Shown one piece after another: positions 2,900 to 25,876 of a stretch of DNA of 35,662 nucleotides. The DNA is from Sporosalibacterium faouarense (lineage in GTDB: Bacteria > Bacillota > Clostridia > Tissierellales > VENL01): the NCBI RefSeq assembly GCF_016765695.1, contig NZ_JAETGO010000002.1, positions 1 through 35,662 of the forward strand, written 5' to 3'. Both the position numbers and the translations under genes were made by a program. Position 1 is the first letter of the stretch. The number at the start of each line of letters is the position of its first letter. The notes beneath the pieces are model-generated. The model saw nothing but the letters and a program-made list of their open reading frames with translations. It made no database searches and was not told the DNA's origin.

Positions 2900-4774
2900 T
2901 TAGCTTGCTGAGGTTACTTCAAATTGACTATAATATAGATTTGCGTAGAATGCACCTTTTTCAAGTAATTCTTTATGATTACCTTGTTCAATAATATCTC
3001 CATTATTCATAACAAGAATCTTATCAGCATCGCGAATTGTACTCAATCTATGGGCAATTATAAAGCTCGTTCTATTCTTCATAAGATTATCCATAGCTTT
3101 TTGAATTTGTATCTCTGTTCTTGTATCCACCGAACTAGTAGCTTCGTCAAGTATAAGAACCTTCGGATCTGCTAATATAGCTCTTGCGATGGTTATAAGC
3201 TGTTTCTGTCCTTGAGAAACATTGGAAGCATCTTCATTAAGTATCATGTCATATCCTCCTGGTAGGTTATGCACAAAACTATCTACATGGGCAGCTTTTG
3301 CTGCTTGTATCACTTCCTCATCAGTTGCATCAAGTCTACCATATCGAATATTTTCCATTATACTTCCGTTATATAACCATGTATCTTGTAGAACCATTCC
3401 AAACAAATCCCTTAGGTCTCCACGTTTAAATTCTCTTATATCATGATTATCAACATTAATTGATCCCTTATTTACATCATAGAAACGCATTAATAGCTTA
3501 ACTACAGTTGTTTTACCTGCACCTGTAGGACCAACAATAGCAATTTTCTGTCCTGGCTTAACAGATGTATTAAAGTCGTTAATAACCATTGTATCTTCAT
3601 CATATCCAAAGGATACTTCTCTAAAATCCACACTTCCTTTAATATTTTTGTTTTTAACTGGACTTGAAGTTTCTGGCACTTCTTCTTCCTCTTCTAAAAA
3701 TTCAAATACACGCTCTGCTGCTGCTGCAGTTTGCTGTAAAATGTTAGAAATATTGGCTATTTGAGTAATCGGTTGTGTGAATGACCTTACATACTGTATA
3801 AACGCTTGAATCTCTCCCACTGTGATAATTCCTCTAACAGCAAACCATCCTCCCATAACACTTACTATTACATAACCTAAGTTACCAACAAATCTCATTA
3901 TGGGCATCATCATACCAGATAAAAATTGAGATTTCCAAGCTGAATGATAAAGATTTTCATTATGAGAATCAAATTCATTGATACTCTTTTCTTCACCATT
4001 AAAAGCTTTCATAACTGTGTGTCCACCATACATTTCTTCTATATGTCCATTTACATTACCTAGATATTTCTGTTGTTCTTTAAAGTACTTCTGTGAGTGC
4101 TTTACTATAATTACGATAAATACCATAGATATAGGCACAATACAAAGGGCTACCATTGTCATTTGCCAGCTTATACTGAACATCATAATCGTAATACCAA
4201 TCACGGTTGTAATAGATGTGACAAACTGTGTTAAACTTTGATTTAATGTCTGACTTAAGGTGTCAATATCATTTGTAACACGTGATAATACTTCTCCTTG
4301 ATTAGTTTTATCAAAATATTTTAGAGGTAATTTGTTTATCTTTTCAGAAATATTCTTTCTTAGTTCATAGGTTACCTTCATTGAAACGCCGGACATTATC
4401 CATCCTTGAATATATCTGAATAATGCACTTAACAAGTATAAGCCTGCCAAAGTAATAATTATATTTCTAATATAATCAAAATCTATTCCGCCACCTGTAC
4501 CTGCTATTTTAGACATAATCCCTTCAAATAGCTTATCAGTTGCAAGGGCTAATACCTTAGGACCTGCTATATTAAACACAGAGCTTAAAGCTGCGAATAT
4601 AAAAACTATGATTATCCCTGTCTTATATTTACTCAAATATTTTATTAGCTTTTTCATGGTCCCTTTAAAATCTTGGGCCTTTTCTCCACCTCTCATCATA
4701 TCTGGTCCCTGTCCAGGCCCACCACCACGTTTTCTTCTCATATTTGGAGCATGCTTTTTGTTGTTTTGACTCAT
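2900..4774 (-). CDS. ABC exporter half-transporter, catalytic subunit (permease-ATPase)
   Basis: This is a type IV ABC exporter half-transporter, 624 aa, with the membrane domain at about residues 45-340 and the ATPase domain after 370. The N-terminus is a Gly/Arg/Met-rich cytoplasmic tail (to about 35). Visible motifs are Walker A GPTGAGKTT (415-423), an altered signature VSQGQ (519-523), Walker B ending in Asp543-Glu544 with the catalytic Glu present, and the switch His575. It pairs with the upstream gene, whose stop overlaps this start as ATGA, so the two are translationally coupled. The canonical ATP site should form from this subunit's Walker motifs and the partner's VSGGQ. This matches the asymmetry known for heterodimeric exporters such as BmrCD and TM287/288. 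The substrate is unknown, probably drugs or lipophilic compounds given the marR context. Confidence 0.93.
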   Translation of the reverse strand: MSQNNKKHAPNMRRKRGGGPGQGPDMMRGGEKAQDFKGTMKKLIKYLSKYKTGIIIVFIFAALSSVFNIAGPKVLALATDKLFEGIMSKIAGTGGGIDFDYIRNIIITLAGLYLLSALFRYIQGWIMSGVSMKVTYELRKNISEKINKLPLKYFDKTNQGEVLSRVTNDIDTLSQTLNQSLTQFVTSITTVIGITIMMFSISWQMTMVALCIVPISMVFIVIIVKHSQKYFKEQQKYLGNVNGHIEEMYGGHTVMKAFNGEEKSINEFDSHNENLYHSAWKSQFLSGMMMPIMRFVGNLGYVIVSVMGGWFAVRGIITVGEIQAFIQYVRSFTQPITQIANISNILQQTAAAAERVFEFLEEEEEVPETSSPVKNKNIKGSVDFREVSFGYDEDTMVINDFNTSVKPGQKIAIVGPTGAGKTTVVKLLMRFYDVNKGSINVDNHDIREFKRGDLRDLFGMVLQDTWLYNGSIMENIRYGRLDATDEEVIQAAKAAHVDSFVHNLPGGYDMILNEDASNVSQGQKQLITIARAILADPKVLILDEATSSVDTRTEIQIQKAMDNLMKNRTSFIIAHRLSTIRDADKILVMNNGDIIEQGNHKELLEKGAFYANLYYSQFEVTSAS

Positions 4775-19171: not shown

Positions 19172-19200
19172 TTGACAAAAATAGCTTTTTCCTCTATAAT
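19172..19200 (+). promoter_or_regulatory. Consensus sigma-A promoter of the riboswitch-exchanger unit
   Basis: TTGACA (19172-19177) and TATAAT (19195-19200) are 17 bases apart, a perfect consensus match. Transcription should start near 19207, at the 5' side of the aptamer. Confidence 0.92.
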
Positions 19201-19203
19201 TAA

Positions 19204-19306
19204 GTGGTTAGAGGGAGTAACTAACCTTTCAAAAGGGATTGAAGTCGTCATTTCGGAAATTATAGTTTCCCGGCTTCAGTGACAATACGTCTAGTGAGAC
19301 TCTACA
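19204..19306 (+). promoter_or_regulatory. yybP-ykoY (Mn2+) riboswitch aptamer
   Basis: Conserved blocks of the class are in order: GGGAGTAAC after the first P1 strand (19213-19221), GTCGTCATTTCGG (19244-19256), CCGGCTTC (19270-19277), GTGACAATACG (19279-19289) and the closing GAGACTCTA (19296-19304). P1 forms between TAGAG (19209-19213) and CTCTA (19300-19304). This class binds Mn2+ and usually turns on efflux genes. The 3' P1 strand is also part of the terminator stem, so metal binding should block termination. Confidence 0.9.
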
Positions 19307-19350
19307 ATAAATACAAGATTCAAATCTTATATTTATTGTGGAGTCTTTTT
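19297..19350 (+). terminator. Riboswitch expression-platform terminator
   Basis: AGACTCTACAATAAATA (19297-19313) pairs with 19330-19346 and is followed by TTTTT. It competes with P1 of the aptamer for 19300-19304, which gives an ON switch in the presence of ligand. Confidence 0.88.
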
Positions 19351-19415
19351 GTTTATGTTAACCCCTTTATCTTGCAATTATAGTAGCTTTTATTGACAAA
19401 AGGAGGAGTTTTATC

Positions 19416-20474
19416 GTGGAAGTACTTATTCATAATTTTTTAGTTTCATTTCCTACATGGGGATTAATCTTATTAGTAGCCATTTCTCTATATACTTTAA
19501 GCAAGGGAGCAGACATTTTAGTAGATGAAGCTGTCAGTCTTTCTATTCATTGGGGTGTCCCTAAAATGATTATAGGTGCAACTATTGTTTCTCTGGGAAC
19601 AACATTACCTGAAGCTAGTGTATCTGTTATTGCTGCCTTTAATGGAAACCCAGATCTTGCATTAGGTAATGCCATTGGTTCTATCATTGCAGATACTGGA
19701 CTTATTCTTGGTTTGGCTGCCCTCATTGGAAAACTGCCAGTAGATAGAATTATTGTAGAACGTCAAGGAAAAATACAAGTATGGTCTGGTTTATTATTAG
19801 CAATAGTATGCCTCCCATTCTTCTCAAAGGGAAGTACTGGCAATATAAGTCAAGTAATAGGATGGCTTTTCATAGGATTATTAATAGCTTATATCTATGT
19901 TTCAATTAAATGGAGTAAAAGCTCTAGCTCAAATGAAATAGTGAGTACTCCAAATACATCTGATCCTACTGTAGAAAGCACCTCTTCAGAAAGTGTTTTA
20001 ATAGAAGAAAAAAGTCCTATTATACTTCAAATTTTAAAGCTTATTGCGGGTATAGTTATTGTTATTTGCTCATCAAAGATACTTATACCTTCAGTTGAGA
20101 TTACAGCTATTAGAGTTGGTATTCCTCAAAGCATTATTGCAGCAACATTAATTGCCTTTGGCACAAGTCTACCTGAGCTAGTTACAGCTATTACAGCTGT
20201 GAGAAAGGGCCATGGAGAGCTTGCTATTGGAAATATAGTAGGTGCAGATATCCTAAACGTACTTTTCGTTGTCGGTGGGGCTGCCGCAGTAACCAAAGGA
20301 GGTCTTCAAGTTCCTTTAAACTTCTATAAGCTTCAGATCCCAACAATGGTTATTATTTTAACTACTTTTAGATTATTTGCTAGAGGCCAAAACGAAGAAA
20401 TTACAAAAAAAGAAGGTTTTGTTCTATTTTCCATCTATATAATTTATATAGTTTTAAACTACACCTGGATTTAA
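19416..20474 (+). CDS. CaCA-family cation exchanger under Mn2+ riboswitch control
   Basis: This is a membrane antiporter, 352 aa, of the Ca2+/cation antiporter (YrbG-like) family with two Na_Ca_ex repeats. Repeat 1 has SLGTTLPEASVS and GNAIGSIIADTG. Repeat 2 has AFGTSLPELVTAI and GNIVGADILNV. A Ser/Thr-rich acidic cytoplasmic loop (about 167-205) joins them. The start is GTG at 19416, with AGGAGG about 9 bases upstream. The Mn2+ riboswitch in the leader suggests it exports Mn2+, or another divalent cation in exchange for Na+ or H+. Protein family alone would suggest Ca2+. The substrate assignment is inference. Confidence 0.9.
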   Translation: MEVLIHNFLVSFPTWGLILLVAISLYTLSKGADILVDEAVSLSIHWGVPKMIIGATIVSLGTTLPEASVSVIAAFNGNPDLALGNAIGSIIADTGLILGLAALIGKLPVDRIIVERQGKIQVWSGLLLAIVCLPFFSKGSTGNISQVIGWLFIGLLIAYIYVSIKWSKSSSSNEIVSTPNTSDPTVESTSSESVLIEEKSPIILQILKLIAGIVIVICSSKILIPSVEITAIRVGIPQSIIAATLIAFGTSLPELVTAITAVRKGHGELAIGNIVGADILNVLFVVGGAAAVTKGGLQVPLNFYKLQIPTMVIILTTFRLFARGQNEEITKKEGFVLFSIYIIYIVLNYTWI

Positions 20475-22791: not shown

Positions 22792-23316
22792 TTAAACATC
22801 ATTATCTTCAATCTGTTTTTCTTCTAAACTTTCATAATTAATATCAAAATCTGTTTTGAATTTTTTATATTTCTCCAAAATTTCAGGATTTTTTGTTAGA
22901 AACTCATTAAAGGCATGAATGCTTTTTAATGTCTTTAAACTCATATCATGTTCTATCATTTCTGTATCTTTAAGCAATGTTTCTTCTATACCAAGTTTTT
23001 TCAAGAACTCTTCTATAATTCTATGTCTCCTTAAAAGAAACTCTCCTATTTCTTTGCCTTCTTTAGTTAGCTGGATAATTCCGTATCTTTGATAGTCTAC
23101 TAATTTCAATCTTTTTAGCTTCTGTACTATTTTAGTCGTAGATGATGGCCTAACGTTTAATTTATTAGCTAATTGGTTTACTCTAACATACCCTTCTTCT
23201 TTACAAGTTCTATATATCATTTCTAAATAATCCTCCATGCTTGAAGTTAATAGTTTGTTTTCAGAATTTAATAATTGATATCCCCTAACTGTATGAAACT
23301 CTTTATCTTTTTCCAC
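22792..23316 (-). CDS. DtxR-family metalloregulator with MntR-type ligands
   Basis: This protein is 174 aa. A winged helix (about 24-90, with VRPSSTTKIVQKLKRL) and dimerisation helices align with Bacillus subtilis MntR. All six MntR metal ligands are present: Asp29, Glu32, His98, Glu119, Glu122 and His123. The start is GTG at 23316, with AGGGGG 6 bases upstream, which gives a 21-residue N-terminal extension and a C-terminal tail beyond MntR. It is divergent from feoAB, so it probably represses them when Fe2+ or Mn2+ is plentiful. Which metal it senses cannot be settled from sequence. Confidence 0.87.
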   Translation of the reverse strand: MEKDKEFHTVRGYQLLNSENKLLTSSMEDYLEMIYRTCKEEGYVRVNQLANKLNVRPSSTTKIVQKLKRLKLVDYQRYGIIQLTKEGKEIGEFLLRRHRIIEEFLKKLGIEETLLKDTEMIEHDMSLKTLKSIHAFNEFLTKNPEILEKYKKFKTDFDINYESLEEKQIEDNDV

Positions 23317-23463: not shown

Positions 23464-23709
23464 ATGAAAGAAATTTTATTTCCACTACATGAATTACCTA
23501 TTGGCTCTTGTGGTATGGTTAAAAAACTTACTGCAGAAGGAGGCAGTCGCAGAAGAATGTTGGATTTAGGATTAATAGATGGTACAAAGGTAGAGTCACT
23601 AAGAAAAAGTCCGGCCGGTGATCCTATTGCATATGAAATCAGGGGAGCTGTTATCGCATTGCGTTCAGAAGAAGCATCAAAAATATTTGTGGAATCAATA
23701 AAGCAATAA
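23464..23709 (+). CDS. FeoA, ferrous iron transport accessory protein
   Basis: This 81-aa SH3-like FeoA protein has the typical length and pattern (LPIGSCGMVKKL, RRRMLDLGLIDGTKVE). It works with FeoB at the membrane. AAAGGAGG lies 7 bases before the ATG, and feoB follows after 19 bases. The 147-base divergent gap (23317-23463) must carry both promoters. It contains two CTTATGA direct repeats near 23409-23424 that might be part of a regulator site, but I found no clear DtxR box. Confidence 0.92.
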   Translation: MKEILFPLHELPIGSCGMVKKLTAEGGSRRRMLDLGLIDGTKVESLRKSPAGDPIAYEIRGAVIALRSEEASKIFVESIKQ

Positions 23710-23728
23710 TGATGAAGGAGGTTTTTCA

Positions 23729-25876
23729 ATGGGTTTGACCAATCAATCTACTGGAACAGGTGCTTTAAAGGAGATGTTCCAAGTTGATTTTGAATCGCCT
23801 GACGACATAGTCGTGGCTTTAGCAGGTAATCCTAACACAGGAAAAAGTACAGTTTTTAATAGCCTTACAGGTCTTAATCAGCATACCGGAAATTGGCCAG
23901 GTAAAACTGTAACAAACGCTCAAGGAAAGTATAATCATCATAATAAGAGACATATATTAGTAGATTTGCCAGGGACTTATTCACTATTAGCTAGTTCAGT
24001 TGAAGAACAAGTGGCTAGGGATTTTATATGTTTTGGTAATCCCCATGCAACTGTTGTAGTCACAGATGCTACATGTCTAGAAAGAAATCTGAATTTAGTG
24101 TTACAGATAATAGAAATTACTGATAAAGTAGTAGTTTGTGTAAACCTTATGGATGAAGCAAAGAGAAAAAGCATTAATATTGACTTAAAAAAATTATCTA
24201 AACTTTTAGGAGTTCCTGTAGTAGGCACTACTGCCAGAAATGGTGAAGGTCTAGAGCTACTTAAAGATACAGTATCCAAAGTCGCCAGTGGTGAAATTAA
24301 AACAAATCCTAGAAAGATAAATTATGACGAAATAATTGAGGAATCTATAAAGAAAGTAGACTCTGATATAAATAAACTAATAGATAATAAATTTAATAGT
24401 AAATGGGTTTCTCTACGTCTTATTGATGGAGACCTCCCATTATTAGAATCCATGAATGAGTATCTTGACTCTGATTTAACTAAGAATGAATTACTAAATA
24501 AAAAATTGAAAATAGCTAGAGATAAATTAAAGGATGACGGTTTAAAAATAGAAGACCTTAGGGATCGTATAGTTTCTAATATTATAAAAACTGCTGAAGA
24601 CATTGGCAAAGATGTAGTTAGAGTAGAGAATAAGTCTCATAATCAACTAGATCGAAAAATTGACAGCATATTAACCTCCAGAATATTTGGTATTCCAATT
24701 ATGATTGTTCTTTTAGGTATAGTTTTTTGGATTACAATTGAAGGTGCTAATGTTCCTTCTTCCATGTTAGCTAATGGATTATTTTGGATTGAAGGTCAGC
24801 TGACTGAACTCTTTGGTTGGCTTGGTACACCAGAATGGGTTCATAGTATTCTTATATTAGGTATGTATAGAACACTAGCTTGGGTTATATCAGTAATGCT
24901 TCCACCAATGGCTATTTTTTTCCCTCTATTTACTCTACTAGAGGATTTAGGATATTTACCTAGAGTAGCATTTAACCTAGACTATTATTTTAAAAAGGCT
25001 TGTGCACATGGTAAGCAGGCATTAACCATGTGTATGGGTTTTGGCTGTAATGCTGCAGGAATTATCTCTTGTAGAATAATTGATTCTCCTAGAGAAAGAT
25101 TGATTGCTATAATTACAAACAATTTTGTCCCTTGTAATGGACGATTCCCAACTTTAATTGCCCTTGCAAGCATCTTTATAGCTAGTGCCGCAGGAGCATT
25201 TAGTTCTATTGTTGCTACTCTAACTATATTGGCTACTATTGTATTGGGTGTAATGATTACTCTATTTATATCTAGAATATTATCAAAAACGATATTAAAG
25301 GGACTGCCTTCATCATTTACTCTTGAGCTTCCACCATATAGGAAGCCTCAGATAGGAAGAGTTATTGTTAGATCTATTTTCGATCGTACCTTATTCGTTT
25401 TAGGCCGTGCAGTGGCTATTGCCGCTCCTGCAGGATTAGTTATTTGGTTTATGGCTAATATCACCGTTGGAAATGCAAGCATATTGACTCATTGTGCACA
25501 ATTTTTAGATCCATTTGCAAATTTATTGGGATTAGATGGTTACATTATGATGGCTTTTATATTGGGAATGCCTGCTAATGAGATTGTAATACCAATTCTA
25601 ATCATGAGCTACATGGCTAAGGGGTCTATACTAGAGCTAGATAATTTAGCTGAAATGAAACAACTATTTATTGATAATGGATGGACCTGGCTCACTGCTG
25701 TTTGCACTATGTTATTTTCATTGAACCATTGGCCTTGTGGAACTACTCTTTGGACCATACGCAAAGAGACTCAAAGCTGGAAATGGACTTGGATATCTTT
25801 ATTGGTCCCTACTATTACCGGTATTGTAGTATGTTTCATAGTAGCTCAAGGTGCTCATCTTCTTGGTTTGGTTTAA
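23729..25876 (+). CDS. FeoB, ferrous iron transporter
   Basis: This 715-aa Fe2+ transporter has an N-terminal G-protein domain and a polytopic membrane domain. Nucleotide motifs are GNPNTGKST (33-41), DLPGTYSL (79-86) and NLMDEA (about 138-143). The membrane part has the two Gate regions, with MCMGFGCNAAGI and NNFVPCNGRFPTL. Conserved Cys residues (in FGCNAAG and VPCNGR) match the proposed Fe2+ path. AAGGAGG lies about 8 bases before the ATG. No feoC follows; a terminator lies at once downstream. Confidence 0.96.
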   Translation: MGLTNQSTGTGALKEMFQVDFESPDDIVVALAGNPNTGKSTVFNSLTGLNQHTGNWPGKTVTNAQGKYNHHNKRHILVDLPGTYSLLASSVEEQVARDFICFGNPHATVVVTDATCLERNLNLVLQIIEITDKVVVCVNLMDEAKRKSINIDLKKLSKLLGVPVVGTTARNGEGLELLKDTVSKVASGEIKTNPRKINYDEIIEESIKKVDSDINKLIDNKFNSKWVSLRLIDGDLPLLESMNEYLDSDLTKNELLNKKLKIARDKLKDDGLKIEDLRDRIVSNIIKTAEDIGKDVVRVENKSHNQLDRKIDSILTSRIFGIPIMIVLLGIVFWITIEGANVPSSMLANGLFWIEGQLTELFGWLGTPEWVHSILILGMYRTLAWVISVMLPPMAIFFPLFTLLEDLGYLPRVAFNLDYYFKKACAHGKQALTMCMGFGCNAAGIISCRIIDSPRERLIAIITNNFVPCNGRFPTLIALASIFIASAAGAFSSIVATLTILATIVLGVMITLFISRILSKTILKGLPSSFTLELPPYRKPQIGRVIVRSIFDRTLFVLGRAVAIAAPAGLVIWFMANITVGNASILTHCAQFLDPFANLLGLDGYIMMAFILGMPANEIVIPILIMSYMAKGSILELDNLAEMKQLFIDNGWTWLTAVCTMLFSLNHWPCGTTLWTIRKETQSWKWTWISLLVPTITGIVVCFIVAQGAHLLGLV

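Follow-up and report, generated by a model that had tools for sequence, protein, structure and literature searches.

Riboswitches of the yybP-ykoY class precede ambiguously annotated cation transporters, and variants of the class with other ligands are expected according to one review (PMC7266159). In L. lactis the riboswitch precedes a P-type ATPase (YaoB in PMC11477304; yoaB in PMC9190785), the contact to Mn2+ is made by N7 of A41, within loop UCA41AUUC, and the switch helix P1.1 is reported to be intrinsically weak (PMC6754395). This element is reported to be an ON-switch, in which Mn2+ stabilises P1.1 and the terminator is prevented (PMC11087558); the class is labelled as OFF switches in one review (PMC11477304), against PMC11087558 and PMC9190785. 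A UPF0016 member was found under a yybP-ykoY riboswitch in 328 of the 333 screened strains having such a member (PMC7380456), and the yrbG gene of V. vulnificus is predicted to be under one (PMC13274385).

The pairing of a CaCA antiporter with this riboswitch is already known from Bordetella, where BP3410, which Pfam classes as a calcium:cation antiporter, follows a yybP-ykoY riboswitch and is induced by Mn, the induction being abolished when two conserved G of the aptamer are changed. Calcium is stated to be without effect on its expression (data not shown in that report), and the Mn content of cells was about five-fold lower with a working copy than without one (PMC8546581). The structurally solved Na+/Ca2+ exchanger NCX_Mj (MJ0091), of the same family, transports Ca2+ and is reported to bind Mn2+ and to be inhibited by it, but not to carry it (PMC9928037).

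In the window (the whole stretch of 35,662 nucleotides analysed, whose class was taken as Clostridia, judged from relatives), a CaCA gene lies directly behind a yybP-ykoY aptamer (Table 1), as in BP3410; that gene belongs to a distant organism and was likened to ours by family and riboswitch class. Common to the window and the L. lactis yoaB leader are the L1 and L3 loops, the Mn2+-sensing A, and a P1.1 helix competing with an intrinsic terminator; the L3 loop of the window is one letter off the L. lactis loop, and the gene that follows encodes a CaCA exchanger, whereas that of L. lactis encodes a P-type ATPase. MntP shares the riboswitch class with the window exchanger but belongs to an unrelated protein family. 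No description of CaCA exchangers under yybP-ykoY riboswitches in Clostridia was found in the literature searched, outside of which lay Dambach 2015 and Price 2015. The present analysis adds a CaCA clade separate from it, the breadth of the pairing in the class, and operons with MntP.

Table 1. Features of the exchanger locus, in window positions.
Feature	Position	Strand	Basis or remark
Sigma-70-type promoter, TTGACA - 17 nt - TATAAT	19172..19200	+	12/12 consensus positions
yybP-ykoY (Mn2+) aptamer	19206..19307	+	RF00080 below cut-off, R2 model, covariation
P1 (switch helix P1.1), 5' strand	19208..19213	+	pairs with 19300-19305; outermost pair 19208/19305 mismatched here
L1 loop GGAGUA	19214..19219	+	GGGAGUA invariant in 18 leaders, in 100/101 wider aptamers
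L3 loop UCAUUUC	19248..19254	+	A19250 corresponds to Mn2+-sensing A41 of L. lactis
P1 3' strand, common to aptamer and terminator	19300..19305	+	alignment and hairpin scan
Intrinsic terminator (hairpin 19296-19347, then a U-rich tract ending at 19354)	19296..19354	+	-26.2 kcal/mol
Ribosome-binding site AGGAGG	19401..19406	+	direct reading of letters
CaCA-superfamily exchanger, 352 aa, GTG start, stop ending 20474	19416..20474	+	PF01699, TIGR00367, NCX_Mj match

The leader and its predicted switch

The first-pass annotation had placed a consensus promoter, a yybP-ykoY aptamer with conserved loops, and a terminator using the 3' strand of P1 ahead of the exchanger gene, and had proposed a covariance search with the Rfam family. 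The promoter and the shared-strand terminator were recovered as described; promoter-like sites were as frequent in the region as in shuffled sequences (7 vs 6.7), so the promoter is distinguished by its perfect score only. The L1 and L3 loops of the aptamer were intact, and the proposed search gave a significant match at an E-value threshold (RF00080, 19201-19354, + strand, E 3.4e-7, 351 nt searched); what failed was the curated cut-off, as no match was reported in the leader at the gathering threshold (31.8 vs 45 bits). Searched genome-wide, the leader (E 9.1e-7) was the sole site of its genome at E < 0.1 with this model. The riboswitch has each structural feature tested, and the curated Rfam score alone, a detection threshold and not a structural feature, was missed.

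The RF00080 cut-off was likewise reached in none of the 46 genomes of relatives and in none of the 391 genomes of the class in strict-filter searches; in the latter search the filters lost even the 31.8-bit site of the window, so the zero count for the class shows only an absence of strong matches. Many aptamers of the class precede families of Mn2+ exporters despite this count, which indicates that the model, the cut-off or the filters miss the class.

Two further models were used: R1, trained on exchanger leaders, and R2, built only from 37 aptamers preceding P-type ATPases. R2 matched the window at 19206-19307 (+ strand, 62.9 bits, E 3.1e-14), and across 47 sources (327 kb, E <= 1) it yielded 18 matches, namely the window and 17 leader-bearing relatives, although its independence is incomplete, because R1 had served to find the P-type leaders on which it was trained.

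A 29-pair structure written by hand, comprising the conserved helices P1 to P4 (our naming), all present in the leader, was tested on an alignment of the leaders of the window and its 17 relatives (n = 18). Pairing was observed in 89.7% of the cells and changes on both sides at 16/29 pairs, and the covariation score was 0.258 vs 0.138 in shuffled alignments, none of 500 shuffles being as high, with the caveat that kinship among sequences can itself beat such shuffles. When the pairing partners were slid by 1 to 3 columns as a control, 27.8 to 53.6% of the cells were paired. The predicted fold of the 154-nt leader was better than 200/200 shuffles (z -4.98), mainly owing to the terminator and P3/P4; the aptamer alone did not stand out (z -1.44, with 17/200 shuffles folding equally well).

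The 5' arm of the terminator hairpin contains the 3' strand of P1, so that P1 of the aptamer and the terminator are mutually exclusive. A comparable hairpin on this strand, followed by a T-rich run, was detected in all 18 leaders with a scan that demanded a T-rich tail and chose the best end, and all five P1 letters fell inside the hairpin in 16 leaders, with four in the remaining two (L019 and L029). A simple terminator scan of the region reported no terminator.

We consider it nearly certain that the leader is a yybP-ykoY riboswitch, and its ligand is very likely Mn2+. Its anatomy, together with that of its relatives, points to ON-switching. At low Mn2+, the terminator would take the 3' strand of P1 and transcription would end before the exchanger gene; a rise in cytosolic Mn2+ would lead to binding between L1 and L3 via A19250, and the bound aptamer would hold P1 closed and block the terminator. 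The exchanger would then be made and would expel Mn2+ against entering Na+ or H+.

Distribution of the riboswitch among CaCA genes and in the class

Among 46 close relatives of the exchanger (a distant match, L051, was kept out of the set), the leader was present in 17/21 from Bacillota and in 0/25 from other phyla; one relative (L030) had merely 229 nt of upstream sequence, and another (L049), whose organism the taxonomy does not include, was assigned to Bacillota by its position in the tree. Seven unlinked loci of the clade (L011, L018, L020, L023, L024, L026 and L034) gave no match with Rfam at the gathering threshold. One of the four Bacillota exceptions, L011 (Mobilitalea), has a decayed aptamer at 2824-2898 that has lost L1 but still has its 3' half and the terminator. 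In L029 (Caloranaerobacter, 2706-2910) the aptamer starts a few bases after a tRNA-Ser gene (2706-2800), perhaps in one transcript.

The R1 search of the class sample yielded at least 85 aptamer sites in 77/391 genomes, a lower bound given its strict filters. The genes that followed were 37 P-type ATPases, 19 CaCA, 10 MntP-like, 7 OadB-like, 3 UPF0016, 2 HtpX-like, 2 of one large type and 5 singles; the longest open frame was assumed to be the next gene, possibly wrongly in some cases. Identities were checked with Pfam for a single protein from each of five clusters (P-type, OadB-like, HtpX-like, UPF0016 and CaCA) and for related MntP proteins. As R1 was trained on exchanger leaders, 19 CaCA genes in 85 is not an unbiased share; with R2, three CaCA genes were among the best 30 loci in the phylum. 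Of the 85 R1 sites, 50 were followed by genes for P-type cation ATPases, MntP-like proteins or UPF0016 proteins, all of them families in which some members handle Mn2+.

To approach the question from the gene side, the best 150 PF01699 matches of a longer ranking were taken, which gave 96 genes in 87 genomes; 30 loci and 60 of 66 further regions provided 90 genes in 82 genomes. One locus (L258) was dropped for overlapping L236, in which two adjoining CaCA genes have a separate aptamer each. Among the matches listed, 41 of the 90 CaCA genes had an upstream aptamer on the same strand by R1 or R2 (R1 alone 38/90, R2 alone 40/90), with an MntP gene in between in three of the 41, and no match to R1 (in the list used) or R2 lay elsewhere in the CaCA loci, each of which was cut to a region of about 3 kb. 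In a FastTree phylogeny of 143 CaCA proteins (37/139 inner branches weak) the aptamer label changes at least 26 times, vs 47 in shuffles (0/500 as low), or 16 times counting well-supported branches only, gain and loss not being distinguishable.

Two arrangements of these genes bear on Mn2+, both counted among the matches listed. MntP (PF02659) and CaCA genes stand together behind a single aptamer in four genomes, in the order aptamer, MntP, CaCA in three loci (L170, L251 and L177) and aptamer, CaCA, MntP in one (L246), always on one strand and 6 to 95 nt apart. Of the 10 genomes for which a pair of CaCA genes was read, seven had the aptamer before only one gene of the pair (G419, G262, G322, G122, G339, G109 and G162), one before both and two before neither. 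The idea that riboswitch-led exchangers occur where MntP is missing was also considered; MntP is present in 271/391 genomes of the class, that of the window included, and a simple replacement is therefore not general.

The exchanger and its cargo

The protein has two PF01699 (Na_Ca_ex) stretches (E 2e-58), resembles NCX_Mj (E 1.2e-28), narrowly passed TIGR00367 (186.5 vs a cut-off of 179.65), and is the only PF01699 gene product found in its genome (E 0.001). It had been called YrbG-like, which holds for its membership in CaCA, a family that includes YrbG, but is otherwise loose, as its score with the YrbG equivalog model (PRK10734) was 152.6, far below the cut-off of 432.

The cation-site residues T50, E54, T209 and E213 of NCX_Mj were kept in the window protein and in 143/143 aligned proteins. 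At seven other positions of the ion site the clade of the window differs from NCX_Mj, with and without the leader, the window having S47, T51, I78, D81, A236, D237 and N240 where NCX_Mj has A47, S51, C78, N81, S236, N237 and D240. This set of changes was found to follow the clade and not the riboswitch. Inside the clade the ion-site residues were near-identical in both groups, except at position 78 (I in 21/22 linked and 17/29 unlinked proteins), and outside it CaCA proteins with and without a linked aptamer could not be told apart by them. A single residue had been considered as a mark of Mn2+ transport (GSI for GSN in alpha-1, read as a change of N81); in the alignment N81 corresponds to D, and the I lies at position 78.

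From the promoter, the aptamer with its metal-site letters, the exclusive pairing of P1 or the terminator, the linkage of aptamer and CaCA gene, and the company of CaCA and MntP elsewhere, all of them observed, we infer the ligand, the ON direction, the cargo and the coupling ion at this locus. The whole chain, Mn2+-dependent antitermination of a Mn2+-exporting CaCA antiporter, is probable. Mn2+ export by the window protein is suggested by the BP3410 precedent, the company that the riboswitch keeps, the MntP operons and the split paralogs, and the earlier proposal that some annotated Ca2+ antiporters export Mn2+ gains support from the experiment on BP3410 (PMC8546581) and from the agreeing gene context here. 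Counting against such export are NCX_Mj, which binds Mn2+ without carrying it, and the ion site, no letter of which tracks the riboswitch; also counted were the 25/25 non-Bacillota and 4/21 Bacillota clade members without the aptamer, the missed Rfam cut-off, and the review that labels the class as OFF switches (PMC11477304).

The same switch could sense Mn2+ and yet control what is mainly a Ca2+ antiporter, either because Ca2+ transport is changed under Mn2+ stress or because both ions are carried. The ion preference of NCX_Mj (PMC9928037) and the kept Ca2+-site residues agree with this, as do the relief of Mn2+ toxicity by Ca2+ in a pneumococcal mntE mutant, in which cell Mn2+ was reported not to be lowered (PMC11434433), and a Streptococcus Mn2+/Ca2+ ATPase that is, by the title of the report, under a Mn2+ riboswitch (Martin et al. 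2019). We regard it as unlikely, since BP3410, likewise a CaCA protein, lowers cell Mn (PMC8546581), CaCA and MntP genes share riboswitch-led operons in four genomes, and the aptamer precedes one of two CaCA genes in 7/10 genomes (both counts among the matches listed).

An aptamer that recognises a different divalent ion, Ca2+ for instance, would be one of the variants of changed specificity that are expected for the class (PMC7266159), and L3 does vary with the downstream gene. In 101 aligned aptamers (6 from the CaCA clade of the window, 29 from other CaCA, 37 P-type, 10 MntP-like, 7 OadB-like and 12 other), the letter after the L3 A was G in 18/29 of the other-CaCA aptamers and in 5/37 of the P-type ones, and the loop UCAGUAC was favoured by CaCA aptamers outside the clade of the window (16/29, vs 2/37 before P-type ATPases). 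However, the C and the Mn2+-sensing A of L3 were kept in 101/101 aptamers, whatever the downstream gene, and L1 was almost as constant across target classes, a constancy due in part to selection by models that reward these letters. The L3 of the window, so close to that of L. lactis, also precedes 3/37 P-type ATPases, and BP3410 expression was reportedly unchanged by calcium (data not shown there; PMC8546581). A change of ligand is thus very improbable. It is also very improbable that the leader has no switching function and resembles the riboswitch only by chance or as a decayed remnant. The low Rfam score and the decayed aptamer of L011 might suggest this; the covariation in 18 leaders, the intact loops and the conserved shared-strand terminator count against it.

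Beyond the Mn2+-exporting antiporter proposed for this locus, a wider reading has about an even chance of being right: CaCA antiporters would rank among the major families of Mn2+ exporters in bacteria and would so far have been under-counted, nearly half of the 'calcium/sodium antiporter' genes sampled in the class (among the matches listed) would be Mn2+-induced pumps, the riboswitch would have been gained or lost often, and the rearranged site of the clade (D81, A236, D237 and N240) may pass Mn2+ where NCX_Mj blocks. If 41 of the 90 CaCA genes, among the matches listed, do respond to Mn2+, many genes are wrongly labelled as 'calcium/sodium antiporter', and how one fold chooses between Ca2+ and Mn2+ would be testable in natural pairs, such as those of the seven genomes (out of 10 with two CaCA genes read, among the matches listed) in which a single copy has the aptamer.

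Other metal-related genes and riboswitch targets

At a distance of 2.3 kb from the exchanger there is a gene for a MntR-like DtxR regulator (22792-23316, - strand, 133.6 bits vs a cut-off of 138), with feoA and feoB (23464-25876, + strand) in divergent orientation to it. MntR-like genes near the exchangers of the clade were considered as a second line of evidence and dropped, as the flanks (up to 3 kb, E 1e-6) matched the MntR-like, FeoA or FeoB protein of the window, or two MntP-like queries, in 0/47 loci. A P-type ATPase match was present in the flanks of a single locus of the 47 (L023).

A second Mn2+ riboswitch was detected in the genome of the window (L099, contig C40:63891-68979; aptamer 3501-3589, - strand, R1 48.3 bits), preceding a stand-alone Na+-transporting decarboxylase beta subunit gene (PF03977, 2308-3438, - strand) that is divergent from a MntP-like gene (3753-4304, + strand). 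Such OadB-like genes followed 7/85 R1 sites and five of the best 30 R2 loci, this genome being represented in both. In the literature searched, the two terms of this pairing were mentioned together in one paper, in the context of Na+ riboswitches. Two aptamers of another genome (L072 and L094, both in G214) are followed by genes for M48 peptidases (HtpX-like, by Pfam for L072), which would not be expected to be controlled by a Mn2+ switch.
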